A stretch of 64,000 nucleotides of DNA, taken from contig JAJFLH010000031.1 in NCBI GenBank assembly GCA_021772775.1, forward strand, positions 1 through 64,000. Direction: 5' to 3'. Positions within the stretch are counted from its first letter, which is position 1. Every line of letters starts with the position of its first letter. This document shows, piece after piece, positions 27,423-37,303 of the stretch. This DNA comes from Mariprofundus sp. (GTDB lineage Bacteria > Pseudomonadota > Zetaproteobacteria > Mariprofundales > Mariprofundaceae). Under the pieces are notes generated by a model. That model saw nothing but the letters and a program-made list of their open reading frames with translations, searched no databases and was not told the origin of the DNA. The translations under genes and the position numbers were made by a program.

Positions 27423-27548
27423 ATGGTGAAAAGTGGCCAATATCCGTTTTTCCGCAGTTTGGCAGCTATGTCCGGCAGGCTCCTCGGTTCGATTATAAGC
27501 TCTTTTGTTGTAGTTTTAGTGCTGGAACATGTTATGCATGTATACTAA
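27423..27548 (+). CDS. Possible small single-helix membrane protein (41 residues)
   Basis: The open frame begins MVKSGQYPFFRSLAAM and ends with the hydrophobic run GSIISSFVVVLVLEHVM, one membrane helix. A weak GAGAG lies close before the ATG. The stop is one base before an in-frame ATG (27550) of the diheme cytochrome gene, an arrangement typical of translational coupling. It could be a real leader or membrane peptide, or chance. No family was recognised. Confidence 0.3.
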   Translation: MVKSGQYPFFRSLAAMSGRLLGSIISSFVVVLVLEHVMHVY

Positions 27549-27549
27549 T

Positions 27550-28533
27550 ATGCTGTCCATGTTACTTCGCTCTTTTTCACTACTAATCATTGGATGTCTG
27601 ACACTCAGCTACGCTTGGGCGGAATCATCGTCCGATAAGCTTTTACAAGAACCTATTCGTCCACTTGAAGCGTTAGTTGTAAACGCTGAAAAAGCGGCAC
27701 TGGGTGACTTGCTTTTTCATGAAGAACGGTTGTCGGTTGATAACTCTATCAGCTGTGCGCATTGTCATATTTTGGCTGAAGGCGGAGCCGATGGTCTGCC
27801 GGTTTCAGTGGGCGTGAATGGTGTCAAAGGCGGTATGAACTCTCCTACAGTATTCAATGCGGCACTGAATATCGCCCAGTTCTGGGATGGTCGGGCCAAA
27901 ACTTTAGAAGATCAAATTGATGGGCCTCTGCATGCGAGCGCCGAAATGGCGTCCAGTTGGCCAGATGTTATCAAGAAACTTAGCGCTGATCAGGTTTATA
28001 ACAGCGCGTTTAAAAAGCTCTATAAGGGTGAGATCAGTGAACGGACCATCAAACATGCGATCGCAGAGTTTGAGCGAAGCCTGATCACAGTAGATTCACG
28101 TTTTGATCAATATTTACGTGGTGATGAGAGTGCAATCAATGATGAGGAGAAGAAAGGTTACTCTCTGTTTAAAGAGTTTGGCTGTGTCGCTTGCCATCAG
28201 GGTGAAAATGTAGGTGGTAATCTATTCCAGACCTTGGGTATTATGGATGATTATTTTGCGACCTATGAAGAGATCAAAAAACATGATTATGGCCGTTTCA
28301 ATGTGACTGGTGACATCATGGATAAACACAAATTCAAAGTACCTTCGTTAAGGCTGGTGACATTAACCGCACCTTATTTTCATGATGCTAAAATTACCAA
28401 GCTGGAAGATGCAGTTCGCACGATGGGTAAATATCAATTGGGTATGATTATTTCAGATGCTGATATTGCATCTATTATTGCTTTCTTAAAGACCTTACCA
28501 GGTAAACACCCTAGCCTCGATAAGGTGCAATAA
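27550..28533 (+). CDS. Diheme cytochrome c peroxidase / MauG-family protein
   Basis: 327 residues from ATG 27550; in-frame ATGs at 27529 and 27538 are alternatives. A signal peptide (LLRSFSLLIIGCLTLSYAWA) exports it to the periplasm. Heme sites are CAHCH (69-73) and CVACH (212-216), spaced as in bacterial cytochrome c peroxidases. FDVPSLR-type and YFHDA motifs near the C-terminus (KVPSLRLVTLTAPYFHDA) are family hallmarks. It either reduces hydrogen peroxide or, as in MauG-like members, oxidises a partner. The stop is one base before a hybrid kinase gene, so the two are made together. Confidence 0.92.
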   Translation: MLSMLLRSFSLLIIGCLTLSYAWAESSSDKLLQEPIRPLEALVVNAEKAALGDLLFHEERLSVDNSISCAHCHILAEGGADGLPVSVGVNGVKGGMNSPTVFNAALNIAQFWDGRAKTLEDQIDGPLHASAEMASSWPDVIKKLSADQVYNSAFKKLYKGEISERTIKHAIAEFERSLITVDSRFDQYLRGDESAINDEEKKGYSLFKEFGCVACHQGENVGGNLFQTLGIMDDYFATYEEIKKHDYGRFNVTGDIMDKHKFKVPSLRLVTLTAPYFHDAKITKLEDAVRTMGKYQLGMIISDADIASIIAFLKTLPGKHPSLDKVQ

Positions 28534-28534
28534 T

Positions 28535-30871
28535 ATGACCGGGGGAGCGGCTAAAGATTTGGTGCGGCCACTGATAACAGTGCTCTGTTTATCCGCACTT
28601 TTGGCATTTGTGTATCAGCAGTCACAAGCGATTGATGTGGAGCGCATAAAAAATGCGCAACGTCTGCTGGTCTTAATCGAATCCCAGCAGCATCTGATTG
28701 AACGTGATATGTTGAGAATCCGCAATGGTGATCTGGTTCACTTTGACTCCTTAAAATATGCACACAGGAAGATGCTCAAAGTCAATGACTCTCTGTTACA
28801 TATTCTTCCAGTCAGTGTGCGCGATGGAAGTGTGGAGCTGAGGAAAAGTATCAAAGCCCAAAATTTGGCTATTGAACATTTCATGTCTGATCAGTCCATT
28901 CTGACGAACTCGTTACGGTTTCTTCCCAAAGCAATCGCCATGGCTGTACAGAAGGCTCCTACCTCTACTAGCCAGTTTTATGCATTGCATCGTGATGTGT
29001 TGCGCTATTTGCGTGGTGCCAATCCCGCCGAGGCAGATAAGATTCAGCAACAATTAAGTAGTCTATCTGGCAGTAAATATGTACAGCGTCATGTTGGCCA
29101 TATTCTTATGCGTACCCAAAACGTAGAGAAGGCAATAATTGGTTTTCATAACGCGGATGTGGTTCAAAAGAGTCAACAGATTAGTACAGCTTTAGAAGTG
29201 TATCTTGCTGCAGGTGTTGCCAGTATGCATCGCCATCAAATCTGGTTAATTGTGCTCGCACTTGTGTTGATTGTTTATATTGGTTGGGTGGTATGGCGTC
29301 AAACACGTGTTGCTCACGATCTGCGTAACGCACTTGGACTGGTCGATGCACAGCAATCTGCTTTGGATGAATATGCCATTGTAACCATTGCTGATCAGAA
29401 AGGTGACATCACCTACGCCAATGATAAGTTTTGTGAAATCAGTGGGTACAGCCGAGAAGAGGTGATTGGAAAAAATCATCGTATTTTAAACTCTGGGCTG
29501 CATGAAAAGTCTTTTTTCAAGGAGATGTGGGGAACCATCATCGGTGGTCAAACATGGCATGGTGTGATTCAAAATAGGTGCAAAGATGGCAGCTACTATT
29601 GGGTCAATACCAGTATTGTTCCTTTTCTCGATGAAGATGGAAAGCCATATCAATATGTCTCCATACGCACAGATATTACACGTGCAGTAGAGCATGAAGA
29701 AGAAGAGCGTCTGCATCAGAAGAAGTTGGAACATGCGCAGCGCCTTGAATCATTAGGGGTTTTGGCAGGAGGTATAGCGCATGATTTTAATAATCTGTTA
29801 ACCTCGATTATGGGCAATGCAGGTTTGGTTGATCGAACGATCAAAGCTTCTGACCCTACAAAAGACAAAGTGCAACGCATCATTGATGCATCTGAGAAAG
29901 CGGCCAGCCTATGTAAGCAGATGTTAGCTTATTCGGGTAAAGGGCATTTTATTGTGCAGGCGTGTGATATGTCACTGCTGGCTGAAGAGATGATGGAGTT
30001 GTTACAGATCTCAATCGATAAAAACGTTATTATCAAATATGAATTGGCTGCAAATTTGCCCACAATTAATGCAGATGTGGCGCAAATGCATCAGGTGATT
30101 ATGAACCTAATCACCAACGCCAATGAAGCAATTGATGGGAATAGTGGTGTAATTACGCTCTCTACCGGCTGGTTGCATGCTGATCAGGCATACTTAAAGG
30201 GTGTGAACAGTGAAGAAAACCTGCCCGCTGGTGATTATGTTTATCTGGAGGTTTCAGATAACGGCTGTGGCATGGATAAGAAAATGATAGATAAAATTTT
30301 TGACCCATTTTTTACCACTAAATTTACTGGTCGAGGTTTAGGTTTGAGTGCGATGCTTGGTATTGTCCGGGGTCACAAAGGGGCAGTAAAGGTTTATTCT
30401 GAACTGCGACGCGGCACGACATTTAAAATACTCTTCCCTATAGCTGATCCGAACAGCACAATAACATCTACAGATGAGACAGCTATAGCTGCAAGCATGC
30501 ATGTTGAAAGTGGAACGGCGCTAGTAGTGGATGATGAGGAGATGATTCGCGAGATGGCAAGTGTCATGCTGAGTGAGATGGGGTTTGACATTTTAACAGC
30601 GGCCAATGGTTTGGAAGCAGTTAAGCTATATCCTGAGCATATGGACAAAATTAAGCTGGTGTTATTGGATATGTCGATGCCGAAAATGGATGGGGAAGAA
30701 ACATTTCGGGAGTTAAGAAGAATGAATCCTGATGTCTGTGTGGTTCTCTCATCAGGTTACAATGAACAGGAAGCTACCGAACGCTTTAAAGGTAAGGGCT
30801 TGTCAGGTTTTGTTCAAAAACCATATCTGCCGGATGCCCTGGAGAAAGTTGTTTCAAAAGCGCTTAGTTGA
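28535..30871 (+). CDS. Hybrid histidine kinase with helical periplasmic sensor (PAS, HisKA, HATPase, REC)
   Basis: 778 residues from ATG 28535 with AAGGTG upstream. A first helix (8-25) and a second (about 237-254) flank an all-helical periplasmic domain resembling the DAHL type. A PAS domain (280-390) precedes HisKA with H416 in GGIAHDFNN. The HATPase has NLITNANEAID and DNGCGMD, and the receiver has D712 in LLDMSMPKMDG. The gene is coupled to the upstream diheme cytochrome, so a redox or peroxide signal is a reasonable guess. The kinase core is closely similar to that of the kinase at 812-3439, down to MLAYSGKGxFI and GRGLGxSAxLGIVRGHKGA. Confidence 0.92.
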   Translation: MTGGAAKDLVRPLITVLCLSALLAFVYQQSQAIDVERIKNAQRLLVLIESQQHLIERDMLRIRNGDLVHFDSLKYAHRKMLKVNDSLLHILPVSVRDGSVELRKSIKAQNLAIEHFMSDQSILTNSLRFLPKAIAMAVQKAPTSTSQFYALHRDVLRYLRGANPAEADKIQQQLSSLSGSKYVQRHVGHILMRTQNVEKAIIGFHNADVVQKSQQISTALEVYLAAGVASMHRHQIWLIVLALVLIVYIGWVVWRQTRVAHDLRNALGLVDAQQSALDEYAIVTIADQKGDITYANDKFCEISGYSREEVIGKNHRILNSGLHEKSFFKEMWGTIIGGQTWHGVIQNRCKDGSYYWVNTSIVPFLDEDGKPYQYVSIRTDITRAVEHEEEERLHQKKLEHAQRLESLGVLAGGIAHDFNNLLTSIMGNAGLVDRTIKASDPTKDKVQRIIDASEKAASLCKQMLAYSGKGHFIVQACDMSLLAEEMMELLQISIDKNVIIKYELAANLPTINADVAQMHQVIMNLITNANEAIDGNSGVITLSTGWLHADQAYLKGVNSEENLPAGDYVYLEVSDNGCGMDKKMIDKIFDPFFTTKFTGRGLGLSAMLGIVRGHKGAVKVYSELRRGTTFKILFPIADPNSTITSTDETAIAASMHVESGTALVVDDEEMIREMASVMLSEMGFDILTAANGLEAVKLYPEHMDKIKLVLLDMSMPKMDGEETFRELRRMNPDVCVVLSSGYNEQEATERFKGKGLSGFVQKPYLPDALEKVVSKALS

Positions 30872-30911
30872 ACTCGGGTTCATTGAAGCTAGTGGCTCAA
30901 ATGTAATAATC

Positions 30912-30936
30912 GCTTGCGCTTTAGTGTAAGCTTTTT
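30912..30936 (+). terminator. Rho-independent terminator after the hybrid kinase
   Basis: Eight-base arms (GCTTGCGC at 30912-30919, GTGTAAGC at 30924-30931, with G-U pairs) around a four-base loop are followed directly by five T. Confidence 0.7.
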
Positions 30937-30962
30937 ACCATCACTCATTTTTAGGAGGGGAT

Positions 30963-31517
30963 ATGACAGTTTCAGAAGTGATCGCTGCAATACAGGCAGG
31001 CAATAGCTTGGCAGAGGCAGATTTATCCGGTTTGGACTTTTCAAATCAGGATTTATCGGGTGCGGATTTGTCTGGAGCGAACCTTTCCAACTGTAACTTC
31101 TCCGGTGCAAATTTATCCGGTGCAGATATTCAGGGTGTGAACCTTGATGGCGCTATCTTAATCAATACCAATCAACAGGGCATTCGTATTGATTTGAATC
31201 TATTGCGGGCACGTATTCGCAGTGGCTGGTCATTGACCGGGGTTGATTTAAGAGGTCTTGATCTCTCTGGTCAAGATTTGAGAAATGCCAAGCTGACTGA
31301 TGCCAATCTTGAGGGCTGTAACATGGAGGGCACTGATTTCCGTGGTGCAGTATTGAATGAAGCCAATCTCTCATATTCCAATGTGCGCGATGCTGATTTT
31401 CGTGGTGCTAACTTGAAACGTGTCAACCTGACCCGTGCTGATAGAACCGGCGCGATCATTTCAAAATGGAAGTTAAAAAAGGCCTTTATTGCTGGTGATA
31501 TCGCTTACCGTTCCTGA
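30963..31517 (+). CDS. Pentapeptide-repeat protein
   Basis: 184 residues from ATG 30963, behind a strong AGGAGGGG site. Two blocks of pentapeptide repeats, A(D/N)LSG-like (about 20-65 and 92-165), are separated by a non-repeat linker containing GIRIDLNLLRARIRSGWS. They form a right-handed quadrilateral helix. Some such proteins mimic DNA and protect gyrase, but most have unknown roles. There is no signal peptide. Confidence 0.92.
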   Translation: MTVSEVIAAIQAGNSLAEADLSGLDFSNQDLSGADLSGANLSNCNFSGANLSGADIQGVNLDGAILINTNQQGIRIDLNLLRARIRSGWSLTGVDLRGLDLSGQDLRNAKLTDANLEGCNMEGTDFRGAVLNEANLSYSNVRDADFRGANLKRVNLTRADRTGAIISKWKLKKAFIAGDIAYRS

Positions 31518-31621
31518 TCGACTGAGCATCATAACTTATCGTTGAAGATCTCCTGTAATGTAAAAGACTTTGCATCGACTCAGCCACATTATGCATGATG
31601 AATTGATAGGAGGCGTATTGT

Positions 31622-32584
31622 ATGCACGCTACATTACCATTACTGGCAAAGAGTAATTTCCCGGCTCTCAATAGAGGCGGAGTCGATACACTGCAAGTAA
31701 ACTTGGGTTATTTGTGTAATCAGACCTGTTTGCATTGCCATGTCGACGCTGGCCCGCGTCGCACAGAGATCATGGATAAACAGACCGTACAAACCGTTCT
31801 TGATTATCTGCATGCTAAAAATATTAAAACACTCGATTTAACCGGTGGCGCTCCGGAGATGAATCCGCATTTTCGTTATTTGGTGCAGCAGGCCAGTGCA
31901 ATGGGTGTGCGCATTATTGATCGTTGCAATCTGACGATTCTTGAAGATGAAAATTACGCCTGGCTGGCAGAATTTCTCGCTCAGCATAAAGTTGAAGTGG
32001 TGGCCTCATTGCCATGTTATCTGAGTGATAATGTTGATAGCCAGCGTGGCAGAGGTGTATTTGATGATAGTGTCAGGGCACTTAAACGGCTCAATGAACT
32101 GGGCTATGGCATCGAGGGTTCAGGTTTGATGTTGACGCTGGTTTATAATCCACAGGGTGCGAGCTTACCTCCATCACAATCTGACCTACAAACTGCTTAT
32201 AAGCGTGAGTTACAGCTGCGTTTTGGTATTGTGTTTAATCAATTGTTTACCATTACCAATATGCCGATTAAACGCTTTGGCAGCACACTGATTTCACAGG
32301 GCAATTTCGCTTCATATATGCAGCTTTTGAAAGAGGCTTATAGTGAGGAGAACCTGGCCGATGTGATGTGCAAAAGCTTGATCAGCATTGACTGGCAAGG
32401 TTATGTCTATGACTGTGATTTTAATCAAATGCTCAATCTTCCTATACAAGAGAAAGAGGGGGCACCAGCACATTTATCTGATTTGATTACGCGGGATATC
32501 GCTGGCACACCTATTGTCGTTATGGATCATTGTTATGGATGTACTGCAGGCCAGGGATCCAGCTGCGGCGGCGCACTTGATTGA
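31622..32584 (+). CDS. arsS: Arsenosugar-biosynthesis radical SAM protein ArsS
   Basis: 320 residues from ATG 31622, with TAGGAGG just upstream. The radical SAM cluster motif is C32-x3-C36-x2-C39 (CNQTCLHCH). The C-terminal region ends in DHCYGCTAGQGSSCGGAL, matching the ArsS/DUF3641 extension. ArsS is linked to the synthesis of dimethylarsinoyl ribosides from 5'-deoxyadenosyl transfer to methylated arsenic. The next gene is arsM, which supplies methylated arsenic, so the pair forms a coherent pathway unit. Confidence 0.9.
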   Translation: MHATLPLLAKSNFPALNRGGVDTLQVNLGYLCNQTCLHCHVDAGPRRTEIMDKQTVQTVLDYLHAKNIKTLDLTGGAPEMNPHFRYLVQQASAMGVRIIDRCNLTILEDENYAWLAEFLAQHKVEVVASLPCYLSDNVDSQRGRGVFDDSVRALKRLNELGYGIEGSGLMLTLVYNPQGASLPPSQSDLQTAYKRELQLRFGIVFNQLFTITNMPIKRFGSTLISQGNFASYMQLLKEAYSEENLADVMCKSLISIDWQGYVYDCDFNQMLNLPIQEKEGAPAHLSDLITRDIAGTPIVVMDHCYGCTAGQGSSCGGALD

Positions 32585-32657
32585 TCTGAATACTGCATTG
32601 ATCGCATCATTAAATATCTAAACCCTGAAAAAAGAATCCCCTAGAAATGGAGTGAAG

Positions 32658-33503
32658 ATGAATAAACAGACAAATGTGAGTGCTGATAAAGTGCGCCAAC
32701 ATGTGCGTGAAAGTTATGCCGAAGTAGCTGATGCAAGCAATGATGGTGGTTGCTGTGGAGAAGTGGCAAGTTGCTGCGGTGTCTCCGATGATGCTGCCAT
32801 TAATACTTTGATCTCTACCCGCTTAGGTTATTCCGAAGATGATTTGGCTAATGTTCCTGATGGTGCCGATATGGGCTTGGGCTGTGGTAATCCGCGTGCG
32901 ATCGCTAGCCTGAAAGAGGGTGAAGTGGTTATTGATCTGGGGGCTGGAGGTGGTTTTGATGCTTTTTTGGCAGCCCATGAGGTGGGTAAGAGTGGGCATG
33001 TTATCGGTATTGATATGACTCCTACAATGCTCTCCAAAGCACGCCATAATGCTGAGAAAGGCAAATTCAGCAATGTGGAGTTTCGCCTTGGTGAGATTGA
33101 GTTTCTACCTGTCGCCGACAATACAGCTGATATCATCATCTCCAACTGTGTGATTAATCTCTCACCGCATAAGGAGTGCGTTTTCCGTGATGCATTTCGG
33201 GTGCTCAAGCCAGGTGGTCGATTGGCAATCTCTGATGTTGTGGCAACGGCTGAAATGCCTGAAGAGATGAAGAACGATCCGATACTGCATGCAGGTTGCA
33301 TGGCAGGAGCCTCGTTGATTGATGATTTGGAAGCGATGATGAGAGAAGCTGGTTTTGAACAGATTCGCATTCTTCCAAAAGATGACTCACGTGAATTTAT
33401 TCGCGATTGGGCACCCGGTCGCGGTGTTGAAGCCTATGTTGTATCGGCCCATATCGAAGCTATTAAGCCAGGGGGATGCTGTTCATCATCAGCTTGTTGT
33501 TAA
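32658..33503 (+). CDS. arsM: Arsenite S-adenosylmethionine methyltransferase ArsM
   Basis: 281 residues from ATG 32658. The SAM-binding motif is VIDLGAGGGFDAFLAA. The three cysteines that bind As(III) in this family appear as C76 (MGLGCGNP), C164 (SNCVINLSP) and C214 (HAGCMAGA). Additional Cys pairs lie near the N-terminus (CCGEVASCC) and at the end (CCSSSACC). It methylates arsenite stepwise for volatilisation or for arsenosugar synthesis by ArsS, encoded just upstream. No arsR, arsB or arsC is adjacent, which is unusual for a pure resistance operon. Confidence 0.94.
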   Translation: MNKQTNVSADKVRQHVRESYAEVADASNDGGCCGEVASCCGVSDDAAINTLISTRLGYSEDDLANVPDGADMGLGCGNPRAIASLKEGEVVIDLGAGGGFDAFLAAHEVGKSGHVIGIDMTPTMLSKARHNAEKGKFSNVEFRLGEIEFLPVADNTADIIISNCVINLSPHKECVFRDAFRVLKPGGRLAISDVVATAEMPEEMKNDPILHAGCMAGASLIDDLEAMMREAGFEQIRILPKDDSREFIRDWAPGRGVEAYVVSAHIEAIKPGGCCSSSACC

Positions 33504-33548
33504 TCTTTTTGTAAGAACTTCAAGATTGTATCGCCTAATCGCCTATAG

Positions 33549-33587
33549 CCCTGAGGAAAAACTGGATGAATCGGTTCTTCCTCGGGG
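33549..33587 (+). promoter_or_regulatory. Leader hairpin before the CNPC-repeat gene
   Basis: Arms CCCTGAGGAA (33549-33558) and TTCCTCGGGG (33578-33587) pair with an inner extension (AACTG/CGGTT). The hairpin sits just upstream of the AAAGGAG ribosome site and has no T-run. It may stabilise the message or control translation, which is inference. Confidence 0.45.
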
Positions 33588-33602
33588 AAAAGGAGATGAT
33601 AT

Positions 33603-33863
33603 ATGAAACAGATTACAACTTTGGCAATCGCATTTTTACTGGTGCTCGGGCTGTCTGCTGCATCAGCACTTGCTGCACATCATGATGTGAACCCGTGCAA
33701 TCCATGTGCTATGAAACATAAGTTGAACCCCTGCAATCCAGGTGCCATGAAACATAAGATGAACCCATGTAATCCAGATGCCATGAAAGATAATAACCCA
33801 TGCGCCATGAAACAACAGCTGAATCCGTGTAACCCTTGTGCGATGAAAGGAAAAATGCATTAA
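33603..33863 (+). CDS. Exported small Cys-Asn-Pro-Cys repeat protein
   Basis: 86 residues from ATG 33603 with AAGGAG upstream. A signal peptide ends near SALA. The mature part is almost entirely five imperfect repeats of the type NPCNPCAMKxKx. The second Cys is kept in the first and last repeats but replaced by Gly and Asp in the middle two, and one repeat is shortened, leaving seven Cys. The Cys, Met and His content suggests binding of a soft metal or metalloid such as Cu(I) or As(III); this is inference. A related repeat block is fused to a cytochrome in the next gene. I do not recognise a named family. Confidence 0.8.
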   Translation: MKQITTLAIAFLLVLGLSAASALAAHHDVNPCNPCAMKHKLNPCNPGAMKHKMNPCNPDAMKDNNPCAMKQQLNPCNPCAMKGKMH

Positions 33864-33878
33864 TTGACTCCATCCAAG

Positions 33879-33919
33879 AAAAAAGGCTCTGAACGCATTG
33901 CGTGCAGGGCCTTTTTTTA
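33879..33919 (+). terminator. Terminator after the CNPC-repeat gene
   Basis: The stem AAAAAAGGC-TCTG-AACGC pairs with CGT-GCAG-GGCCTTTTTTT, and the long T-run lies on the plus strand. It separates the two CNPC genes transcriptionally, unless read-through occurs. Confidence 0.85.
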
Positions 33920-34003
33920 TGTTTATTGTAAGAAGTTGCATCCATTAATCGACTCTTGCAGGTATGTGACCGGAATACCGGCACCTTACAATGGAGGAGA
34001 ACG

Positions 34004-34558
34004 ATGAATAAATTAATGAAGTTCATATCAGTTATGGTATTAACTCTCGGTTTAGTTGCAGCACCTGCATTTGCAGGCTCGCATGCTAATCCGTGCAACC
34101 CGTGTGCGATGAAGCAACAGATGAATCCGTGCAATCCATGTTCTATGAAGAAAGCGACTAACCCCTGCAACCCATGCAGCATGAAAAATAACCCTTGCTC
34201 ATTGAATCCATGTGCAGCCAATCAGAAAACCCCAATCCGCAAAGCTGCTTTTGATAACTTCCAGCAAGCGGCAGCCCTGGGTAAAAAGATGTGGAACGAT
34301 GAAAAGCTGGGAAGTGCAGGTGTTGCCTGTCTCTCCTGCCATGCTGATCACGACTTATTGAATCTGGAACGCAACCAGAATTTTCCGCATTTTGTTAAAA
34401 TGGTGGGTGATGTCGTAACTTTAGATCAGATGATTAATTACTGCATGCTTAATCCAATGAAGGGCAAGCAGTTCGAAAAAAACTCCAAGGAGTTAACCGC
34501 CATGGCTGCCTATTATCGTGCGTATCGCATACAGTATTTGAGTGAACATAAAAAGTAA
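34004..34558 (+). CDS. CNPC-repeat monoheme cytochrome c
   Basis: 184 residues from ATG 34004, with GGAGGAG upstream. A signal peptide ending in PAFA is followed by repeats like those of the preceding gene (NPCNPCAMKQQ, NPCNPCSMKKA, NPCNPCSMK, then NPCS and NPCA; eight Cys in all). The C-terminal domain is a class I-like cytochrome with heme site CLSCH at 109-113 and Met candidates in INYCMLNPMKG. The fusion puts a presumed metal-binding tail on a periplasmic electron carrier. It is followed by a pentaheme cytochrome gene. Confidence 0.85.
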   Translation: MNKLMKFISVMVLTLGLVAAPAFAGSHANPCNPCAMKQQMNPCNPCSMKKATNPCNPCSMKNNPCSLNPCAANQKTPIRKAAFDNFQQAAALGKKMWNDEKLGSAGVACLSCHADHDLLNLERNQNFPHFVKMVGDVVTLDQMINYCMLNPMKGKQFEKNSKELTAMAAYYRAYRIQYLSEHKK

Positions 34559-34578
34559 GTCTAAGACTGATAATGTGT

Positions 34579-34603
34579 ATGGGGGGCCCATTGATGGGCC
34601 GCC
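34579..34603 (+). repeat. GC-rich hairpin between the two cytochrome genes
   Basis: GGGCCCA and TGGGCC pair around a short loop, followed by no T-run. The hairpin lies just upstream of the GGAAAGGAAG ribosome site of the pentaheme gene, and may adjust relative expression. Confidence 0.4.
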
Positions 34604-34621
34604 CTAATGGGGAAAGGAAGT

Positions 34622-35842
34622 ATGAAAAGAGTTGTGAAACGACAGACTGGTATGGCTTTAATCCTGATGCTGAGTGGCATCATGCTGGTTGCGGCGATGC
34701 TTGATCCCGGTCTGCCGACAAACTATTGGGATTATCCATCAGCAAGCCAAGGTGTTTCACCCCATGACTGGTCGAAATTAGAAGCTGATTTGCGGCCGGA
34801 AGCATGTGCACAATGTCATGTCGAACAATTTGATGCCTGGAAAAATAGTCTGCATGCGCACGCATATTCCCCCGGTCTTGTTGGTCAATTCCCAGCCATG
34901 GGCCACATCAATGCGAATGAATGTCTTGTCTGTCATGCGCCACTGAAAGAACAGCTATATGATAATGATGAGAGTATGGATGCATCAATTCTACTACGTC
35001 TCAAACATCAGGAAGGTTTTGACCGCGATGCGAATCTTGATGCTGAGAAGCTTCCATTAAGGCACAGCGGTGTGAGTTGCGCCGTCTGCCATGTGCGTGG
35101 TGGAGAACGTTTTGGACCACCTTCGACAACAAGCGGGGCTATAGGTAAACAACAGACATCGGCGCATGGCGGTTTCACTGCAACGACTGCATTTGAACAA
35201 TCACAGTTTTGTGCATCGTGCCATCAGTTTCCACAATCCATGGCGATTAATGGGAAACCACTGGAAAACACTTTAACTGAATGGAAAAGCAGTAGTTTTC
35301 CAGGTAAGGGTGTGACTTGCCAAGGCTGCCATATGCCAGATCGGAAACATGAATTCCGTGGTATCCATGATCCTGATATGGTCAGAAAGGGCTTAGACCT
35401 TAAGCTTACACAGCAAAAAAATAGTGCTAATCTCACCATAACATCCAAGTGGATCGGTCATGCATTTCCAACCTATGTGACACCCAAAGTGGTCATTGCA
35501 GCAGAGGCAAAAGATGCAAAGGGTGTTGTGTTGAAACAGTGGCAATGGGAAGTGGTGCGTGAAGTTGAATACAATAATGGCTGGCAGGAAGTGCGAGATA
35601 CACGGCTGATGCCGGGTGAATCACGAGCATTCATAGCTCAATCATTGCCTGCAAAAGCTGTCAAAATACGCTATTGGGTGAGGGTCATCCCGGATAATTT
35701 TTATAAGGGGATCTATCACAGTCTGCTGGAGGATAAGTTAAACCCAGCGGCAGCGACTCATATTCGCCGTGCCAACCGGCAGGCTGATAAAAATGATTAT
35801 CTACTTTATGAACAGGAGATGGCAATTTCCGCCATGCATTGA
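34622..35842 (+). CDS. Membrane-anchored pentaheme c-type cytochrome
   Basis: 406 residues from ATG 34622. An N-terminal hydrophobic helix (about 10-30) is either a signal or an anchor. Five CxxCH sites start at residues 62, 101, 153, 197 and 233 (CAQCH, CLVCH, CAVCH, CASCH, CQGCH). The layout resembles cytochrome c554-type multiheme proteins, followed by a beta-rich heme-free C-terminal domain of about 150 residues. It likely passes electrons in the periplasm, perhaps with the CNPC cytochrome encoded just before it. Substrate and partner are unknown. Confidence 0.88.
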   Translation: MKRVVKRQTGMALILMLSGIMLVAAMLDPGLPTNYWDYPSASQGVSPHDWSKLEADLRPEACAQCHVEQFDAWKNSLHAHAYSPGLVGQFPAMGHINANECLVCHAPLKEQLYDNDESMDASILLRLKHQEGFDRDANLDAEKLPLRHSGVSCAVCHVRGGERFGPPSTTSGAIGKQQTSAHGGFTATTAFEQSQFCASCHQFPQSMAINGKPLENTLTEWKSSSFPGKGVTCQGCHMPDRKHEFRGIHDPDMVRKGLDLKLTQQKNSANLTITSKWIGHAFPTYVTPKVVIAAEAKDAKGVVLKQWQWEVVREVEYNNGWQEVRDTRLMPGESRAFIAQSLPAKAVKIRYWVRVIPDNFYKGIYHSLLEDKLNPAAATHIRRANRQADKNDYLLYEQEMAISAMH

Positions 35843-36070
35843 TACTTGCTCTTGTTTTGCCTCTAATCATAATTCCTTCTTTTAATGAAGCAGTTTCGAC
35901 CTGGAGTTGGGATCAGTGCAAGGAACTGAGTATATACTCTGCTTGTTGTTATGATGCTTAAACCATACTCTTCAACAGGTCGTCTCTTTAATCGTACTGA
36001 TAATCCAGCAATGATGTGGGATTGGTACCGTTCTTGATTAAATACAATGTGTTCCCAAGGATCTTTAGCT

Positions 36071-37303
36071 ATGCAAGTGCGTAAAGCGGCAATCGAGTGT
36101 TTAACAAAGATAATTCATGCCAAGTTTAAAGCAGATGTTGCCATTCAGCGCGCGGGCCAATATTTTGAAGTGCGTGAGCGTAAAATGTTACATGAGTGTG
36201 TATATGGTGTGCTGCGCCACTCTTTCTCCCTAGAAGCTGATTTCTCCCGCTTTATTAAAGACAAACCCGATGATAACGCTTACGCGGCTCTGGCTGTTGG
36301 TACATATCAGTTACGCCATATGCGTGTGCCAACACATGCTGCCGTTTCGGAAACGGTATCGGCTATAAAGCAGCTTAATCCGAAAGCCGCAGGTTTTGTG
36401 AATGCAGTTTTGCGTCGAGTGAGTAGCAGTCAGCCACCTAAAAAACTGAAACCCAACCAGCGTACTGAACTCCCTAAATGGATGTATGCACAATGGCGTG
36501 ATGCCTTTGGAGCTGATGAAGTGCAGGCGTTTTGTGAAGCGCTGAAACAGCCACCGATGCTCTGTCTGGCTCTATTTACGGATAGGGATATCTGGATCGA
36601 GCAGGTGCAAGCTTTAGGTATTGAGGCTGAAGTAGGGGAGCTCTCTCCATATGCCGTGTTACTACCGGTTGGCACTGATGTTGTTGCACTTCCCGGTTTT
36701 GAAGCGGGTGCATTCACAGTGATGGATCAGGCTGCTCAAGCTGCTGTCATGGCCTTGAAGATGCCAAGAGTTGATGGCCTTATTCTCGATCTCTGTGCTG
36801 CTCCAGGTGGCAAAACAGCGCTGCTGGCTCATCGTTTCCCAGAGGCTCGAATTATTGCGGTGGAATTGAATGAGAAGCGTCTGCCACGACTGCAAGAAAA
36901 CCTGTCGAGACTCTCTTGTGATAATGTCGTCGTCATGCAAGGCGATGCGATGAAGTTACCCTTTGACGAGAGCAGTGCTGATGCAATTTTCCTCGATGCT
37001 CCCTGTTCTGCATCAGGTATTTTACGTCGTCATCCCGATGCAAAACTGCTGCATGATTTGGAGGCAGTTGAAAAGTTATCCTTGTTGCAAACAGCCATGC
37101 TAAAAGAGTCGTTACGGGTACTCAAAACCGATGGGAAGATGGTCTATGCAGTTTGTTCGATTCACCAACAAGAGAATGAGCATGTGATAAGTAGCTTGGG
37201 TAAAACGGTTATTTCTCGTGACAATAGGCGGCTGCTTCCAACTATTTACCACGATGGTTTTTTCCACGCAACAATAGAGAAATGTAGTTTTCCGACGCTA
37301 TGA
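36071..37303 (+). CDS. rsmB: 16S rRNA m5C967 methyltransferase RsmB
   Basis: 410 residues from ATG 36071 with AAGGA upstream; the frame is open from 36047. An N-terminal NusB-like RNA-binding domain (about 1-135) is followed by a SAM domain with LDLCAAPGGKTALLA. The two catalytic cysteines are in DAPCSASGILRRHPD and AVCSIHQQEN. It methylates C967 of 16S rRNA. Its stop overlaps the thiL start by four bases. Confidence 0.96.
   Translation: MQVRKAAIECLTKIIHAKFKADVAIQRAGQYFEVRERKMLHECVYGVLRHSFSLEADFSRFIKDKPDDNAYAALAVGTYQLRHMRVPTHAAVSETVSAIKQLNPKAAGFVNAVLRRVSSSQPPKKLKPNQRTELPKWMYAQWRDAFGADEVQAFCEALKQPPMLCLALFTDRDIWIEQVQALGIEAEVGELSPYAVLLPVGTDVVALPGFEAGAFTVMDQAAQAAVMALKMPRVDGLILDLCAAPGGKTALLAHRFPEARIIAVELNEKRLPRLQENLSRLSCDNVVVMQGDAMKLPFDESSADAIFLDAPCSASGILRRHPDAKLLHDLEAVEKLSLLQTAMLKESLRVLKTDGKMVYAVCSIHQQENEHVISSLGKTVISRDNRRLLPTIYHDGFFHATIEKCSFPTL

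Follow-up and report, generated by a model that had tools for sequence, protein, structure and literature searches.

A conserved module of exported NPC-repeat proteins, a SoxA/TsdA-type monoheme cytochrome and a pentaheme cytochrome in Zetaproteobacteria

Small exported proteins built on an Asn-Pro-Cys (NPC) repeat, a second NPC-repeat protein fused to a monoheme cytochrome domain and a pentaheme cytochrome c form a real, conserved gene module. Searching across genomes for the repeat beside multiheme cytochromes, we found the NPC-cytochrome gene directly ahead of the pentaheme gene in some 30 loci of Zetaproteobacteria and in three loci outside this class. We tentatively interpret the module as a thiol system of the cell envelope that is linked to electron transfer.

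Organization of the locus

The window that we analysed, by which we mean the whole stretch of 64,000 nucleotides, comes from the 3.12 Mb genome of Mariprofundus sp. (contig JAJFLH010000031.1), and the locus is encoded on its forward strand. CNPC1, an exported NPC-repeat protein of 86 amino acids (33603–33863), is followed by CNPC-cyt, a protein of 184 amino acids in which NPC repeats are fused to a SoxA/TsdA-type monoheme domain (34004–34558, the start being the first ATG with an AGGAG-type site), and by a c552/ExtKL-like pentaheme cytochrome c with a C-terminal beta-rich domain (34607–35842, likely start at 34622). This is the arrangement, at the same positions, that the original prediction had described: two exported NPC-repeat proteins, the second fused to a monoheme cytochrome, ahead of a pentaheme gene. 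The two arsenic genes that it had placed upstream were also recovered above their NCBIfam cut-offs, namely arsS, for an arsenosugar radical SAM protein (31622–32584, forward strand; TIGR04167, 472 bits, cut-off 300), and arsM, for an arsenite methyltransferase (32652–33503, forward strand; NF008823, 356.6 bits, cut-off 263), both of them recurrent but non-obligate neighbours.

A terminator-like hairpin with a U-tract (33882–33917, forward strand; -25 kcal/mol, z = -4.9), overlooked by a simple terminator scan, separates the two NPC genes. Because of this strong hairpin, CNPC1 and CNPC-cyt are probably not part of one simple operon, and CNPC1 is probably transcribed as a separate unit. Rfam gave no match within positions 30000–37000, and a sigma-70 scan revealed no promoter-like sites above chance. 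About 6 kb upstream of the NPC genes, at 27529–28533, the window also encodes a di-heme protein of the MauG/MbnH-like type, a family tied elsewhere to MbnP copper sites.

The NPC repeat

After a hydrophobic signal-like N-terminus (signal peptides were assessed by eye), the mature part of CNPC1 comprises 62 residues and, as anticipated, nothing besides NPC units: 7 NPC, with 7 Cys, 7 Met and 5 His. The shared NPCNPCAMK repeat that had been announced is present, although less regular than this formula, since two CNPC1 units are degenerate (NPCNPG and NPCNPD). CNPC1 had no match in PDB, PHROG or Pfam, and none above cut-off in NCBIfam. At their third codon positions, the NPC units have diverged nearly to randomness (1.86–1.89 of 3 differ per pair), which indicates that the repeat is old and maintained at the protein level; this divergence, together with homologues in dozens of genomes, excludes a chance origin.

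Across 79 NPC proteins, some of them from one locus included twice, Asn-Pro precedes 94% of the Cys in the repeat segments, a figure slightly inflated by cutting the segments at NPC ends, and a Cys-Cys spacing of 3 (mostly C-N-P-C) is the commonest. N-P-C is the sole part of the repeat conserved across lineages. As the residues that follow it vary (AMK, SMK, AAK, AAP, AAN, APK), Met and His are traits of the Mariprofundus branch and not of the family. The mixed Cys/Met site first proposed is not supported in view of the NPCAAK, NPCAAP and NPCAAN repeats. This lack of conservation weakens a Cu-type site, and we rejected one formed by Cys, Met and His.

The heme domain of CNPC-cyt

In CNPC-cyt, a signal-like N-terminus and 8 NPC are followed by a single CXXCH motif (CLSCH, residues 109–113). 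The heme domain matched PF21342 (SoxA-TsdA_cyt-c; E 1.2e-12, 48.1 bits, cut-off 27) and is ordered in the AlphaFold model (pLDDT above 90), the repeat being modelled as disordered (pLDDT about 40); these models contain neither heme nor metal. The best 13 Foldseek matches of the model were all SoxA or TsdA, and a profile of 23 members matched SoxA (1h31, E 1.2e-12) and TsdA. Heme 1 of TsdA is ligated by His53 and Cys96 (PMC6879331), which in the alignment lie opposite CNPC-cyt His113 and Cys147, respectively. These two residues, as well as Met133, Met143, Pro151 and Met152, are invariant in 31 of 31 sequences. By this alignment, Cys147 is the predicted distal ligand, and the heme is predicted to be of the His/Cys-ligated SoxA/TsdA type (His113 plus Cys147), a more specific assignment than the plain monoheme cytochrome of the original prediction, which was correct as to heme number.

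The TsdA residues Arg82, Arg92 and Ser100, which correspond to Arg109, Arg119 and Ser127 in precursor numbering (PMC4423706), lie opposite Met133, Met143 and Pro151, respectively; Arg119 is invariant in TsdA and SoxA (PMC4423706). Since this thiosulfate-binding Arg/Arg/Ser set is replaced by Met/Met/Pro in 31/31 sequences, CNPC-cyt is probably not a thiosulfate dehydrogenase, and we discarded that candidate. We likewise discarded SoxA as a named equivalog (48.8 bits against a cut-off of 110).

Some NPC-poor relatives of this cytochrome carry a CX4CH heme motif (CLSGGCH; L155, 8318–8803, and L154, 1957–2691), the L155 gene being divergent from arsS. In Mariprofundus sp. OFTM123, the CNPC-cyt gene is broken by frame changes (L058, 8001–8784) and its neighbours look intact.

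The pentaheme cytochrome

The pentaheme protein contains five CXXCH motifs. Its model (pLDDT 84) had a single good match, the penta-heme cytochrome c552 of T. tepidum (5ze8; Foldseek E 4.5e-16), and on the strength of this model the protein folds like c552. It has been proposed that c552 groups with ExtKL and the pentaheme cytochromes of cable bacteria, and a relation to archaeal cytochrome nanowires has been claimed (PMC11976967). ExtKL itself was rejected as a named equivalog (NF040886; 67.4 bits against a cut-off of 250) and, unlike in the ExtKL comparison systems, there was no porin among the genes read beside the pentaheme gene.

Conservation and spread of the module

The CNPC-cyt query had a match in 45 of 100 relatives, and its 27 loci from named genomes were all zetaproteobacterial with the exception of L057; Mariprofundus sp. 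EBB-1 and M. micogutta are among the carriers of the module. An NPC-cytochrome gene stands directly 5' of a pentaheme gene in the zetaproteobacterial loci counted above (about 30), usually with an NPC-only gene ahead of it, and in L057, G065 and G081 outside the class. Elsewhere, it is an NPC-only gene that lies directly upstream of the pentaheme gene (G007, G013, G023, G025, G066, G107 and G197); the small NPC-only protein of G066, G107 and G197, which are outside the order, consists of KNPCAPKNPCAAK plus a Lys/His/Asp-rich tail.

Within the phylum, 54 of 398 genomes encode the pentaheme protein; 45 of them belong to the family, 1 more to the order, and 8 lie outside the order. Of 320 genomes outside the order, 4 had both the pentaheme protein and a SoxA-like relative, 4 the pentaheme protein only, 9 the cytochrome only and 303 neither, a co-occurrence of 4 against 0.33 expected (p = 1e-4, ignoring kinship); the relatives were counted at E up to 1e-25, and some are without or nearly without NPC repeats (G129, G134, G146, G168, G394). 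Beyond Zetaproteobacteria, NPC-cytochromes occur in G368 and G290 (of one class), G117, G382, G365, G125 and G081, with adjacent pairs of NPC-only and NPC-cytochrome genes in G368 and G382, and with the pentaheme and NPC-cytochrome genes on separate contigs in G290 and G365. The parts also occur on their own: NPC-only genes without an NPC-cytochrome match (G077, G483, G569, G579), pentaheme genes without NPC genes nearby (G002, G003, G035, G060, G063, G191) and NPC-cytochromes without a pentaheme match (G117, G125, G368, G382). Both the NPC-cytochrome and the pentaheme gene are absent from two single-contig genomes of the same genus (G008, G012), which may belong to iron oxidisers in culture, M. 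ferrinatatus CP-8 and M. aestuarium CP-5; if so, the module is dispensable for Fe(II) oxidation.

Two genomes with the pentaheme protein and no NPC-cytochrome (G002, G003) encode small, acidic exported proteins in which NPC units are sparse (L157, 7482–7769; L122, 8028–8309), which are possibly remnants or replacements. Some genes were called by a simple longest-ORF rule, so that lists of neighbours are incomplete in high-GC genomes.

Neighbouring genes

Several gene families recur around the module. A MerA-like FAD oxidoreductase, often accompanied by or fused to a VTT domain, is adjacent in G077 and G048 (58% identical) and also occurs near the module in G010, G019, G023, G168, G290 and G368. 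DUF547 genes are neighbours in G010, G019 and G368, and DUF3179 genes in G117, G168, G368 and G382. DUF6969 (PF22308), a candidate functional partner, is encoded directly beside NPC-repeat genes in G117, G365, G368, G382 and G569 (loci L147, L177, L192, L193 and L194), all of them non-zetaproteobacterial. An exported SUMF1/FGE-like protein adjoins a pentaheme or NPC gene in the zetaproteobacterial G001, G002, G003, G007 and G009 and in G569 (L035, 3829–4635; L062, 6371–7270; L113, 7785–8543; L177, 526–1413). Relatives of SUMF1/FGE act on Cys thiols, so this neighbour could modify the repeat cysteines. Taken together, these recurrent neighbours suggest a chemistry of thiols, metals or metalloids, without singling out a substrate. 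In several Zetaproteobacteria, an AhpC/TSA redoxin gene lies between arsS and arsM (L034, 5645–6313).

Proposed function and alternatives

In the envelope thiol system that we tentatively propose, the NPC repeats would form a disordered chain with cysteines at short intervals and act as a multi-site dithiol carrier, which may hold a soft ion such as Cu(I) or As(III), or engage in thiol/disulfide exchange. The SoxA/TsdA-type heme, with His113 and Cys147 as its predicted ligands, would swap electrons with this thiol pool, and the pentaheme cytochrome, probably membrane-linked, would join pool and heme to the rest of the chain. Judging from these parts, the thiol or soft-metal state of the carrier is most likely read or reset by the Cys-ligated heme and the pentaheme protein. 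The export signals seen by eye, the repeats, the heme sites, the SoxA/TsdA fold, the alignment of Cys147, the c552-like fold and the gene linkage come from the sequences and models themselves, and from them we infer the heme ligation, the metal or thiol chemistry, the membrane anchoring and the direction of electron flow. As ligand chemistry we prefer the binding of a soft metal or metalloid, then a thiol/disulfide or sulfur carrier, then any other. Counting against this explanation, a strict Asn-Pro ahead of each Cys exceeds the needs of simple metal binding, and pentaheme genes and NPC-cytochromes each occur apart from the other in some genomes; both cytochromes could also be plain electron carriers.

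A sulfur carrier appears unlikely to us. CNPC-cyt would then be SoxAX-like, its heme conjugating sulfur species or a thiol onto the repeat cysteines in a SoxYZ-like manner and delivering the electrons to the pentaheme protein. The SoxA/TsdA fold with its ligand Cys, the ability of SoxA-family hemes to join thiols oxidatively (PMC4423706), the fused repeat tail as a ready thiol substrate and the exported SUMF1/FGE-like neighbour are all consistent with this reaction. However, the replacement of TsdA Arg109, Arg119 and Ser127 in every sequence argues against it, as does the 23-member profile, which fits the N-terminal half of 1h31 best, and the genome had no match to SoxY (PF13501), a search in which the control was silent too.

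We consider it quite unlikely that the module is specific to arsenic and binds As(III), or the methylated arsenicals made by ArsM, to oxidise or hold them in the envelope. The proximity to arsM on which the original prediction drew is recurrent: arsS and/or arsM lies within about 10 kb of the CNPC genes in 12 of 25 resolvable loci of several genera (tallied by hand, 5 more being cut by contig ends), far above the ~1% that chance would give for a 20 kb interval of a 2.5 Mb genome, although most cases share ancestry, which inflates the count. In addition, arsS adjoins NPC and pentaheme genes in G023 (L115) and an NPC-less SoxA-like cytochrome in G134 (L155). Yet this proximity is not obligate, with 13 of the 25 loci lacking nearby ars genes; arsS is near-universal in Mariprofundaceae and separate from the module in many genomes, arsS and arsM occur together without it in G008 and G012, and the neighbours are different ones in G117, G365, G368 and G382. 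We thus rejected an obligate arsenic operon.

Marginally less probable again is a structural role, with the NPC repeats disulfide-cross-linked into an envelope matrix that fixes the cytochromes in place. Such repeats are known in CdeC of C. difficile, whose self-assembly is disulfide-dependent (PMC7677010) and whose family model gave a weak match (E = 0.041); repeat length and spacing vary freely, and the heme domain has NPC repeats both before and after it in L057, G081, G117, G125, G290 and G365. The CdeC match is nevertheless far under the cut-off and concerns a spore-coat protein, and the NPC-only proteins are small (60–170 amino acids). We see little chance that the NPC repeats are a widespread envelope redox material, in which metal- or disulfide-bridged disordered chains would link cytochromes and carry electrons or oxidise a soft metalloid, and in which the His/Cys-ligated heme would make the connection to pentaheme cytochromes. 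Participation in the electron chain of Fe(II) oxidation is equally improbable, for although members are mostly zetaproteobacterial, many periplasmic cytochromes are highly expressed in Zetaproteobacteria (PMC7029218) and the fold of the pentaheme protein has relatives among electron-transfer families (PMC11976967), both genes are missing from G008 and G012 and the module is present in other classes of Proteobacteria too.

Significance and comparison with known systems

The family is found in most of the iron-oxidising Zetaproteobacteria examined and, scattered, in other Proteobacteria. To our knowledge, Cys-ligated hemes of the SoxA/TsdA type are known solely from inorganic sulfur chemistry. 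A family that keeps the heme ligand, drops the thiosulfate-binding residues and adds a polycysteine tail suggests a different substrate for this heme type. If that substrate were a soft metal or metalloid, the module would show how such ions are treated in the envelope of marine iron oxidisers, whose mats are rich in metal and arsenic. The small size and export of the NPC proteins make the question of the substrate directly testable.

The literature that we searched, with few subscription journals, described no NPCNPC, NPCAAK or CNPC repeats with cytochromes, CdeC being the sole related case, and, in line with the original prediction, no system with the whole set; the individual cytochrome folds are known. 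The domains are thus known ones, and their combination and distribution appear new. Bufferins, Cys-rich periplasmic copper-binding RiPPs, resemble the NPC-only proteins as small exported Cys-rich proteins. We rejected a bufferin or other MNIO-modified peptide, as the MNIO enzyme (PF05114) had no match in the source genome, the control matching in 2 genomes. CdeC of the C. difficile exosporium shares a repeated NPC motif and Cys-richness (PMC7677010), but it is a Firmicute spore-coat protein without a cytochrome and the resemblance is weak (E 0.04). With TsdA and SoxA (PF21342), CNPC-cyt shares the fold of the heme domain, the CXXCH and a distal Cys in the column of TsdA Cys96, whereas it differs in its single heme domain, its NPC-repeat tail and its Met/Met/Pro in place of Arg/Arg/Ser. 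The pentaheme protein and T. tepidum c552 (5ze8) have in common five hemes and the fold of the whole chain (TM 0.55–0.58; HMM E 1.5e-12) at 19% identity, and the beta-rich C-terminal domain is common to it and the c552/ExtKL/PHC family.
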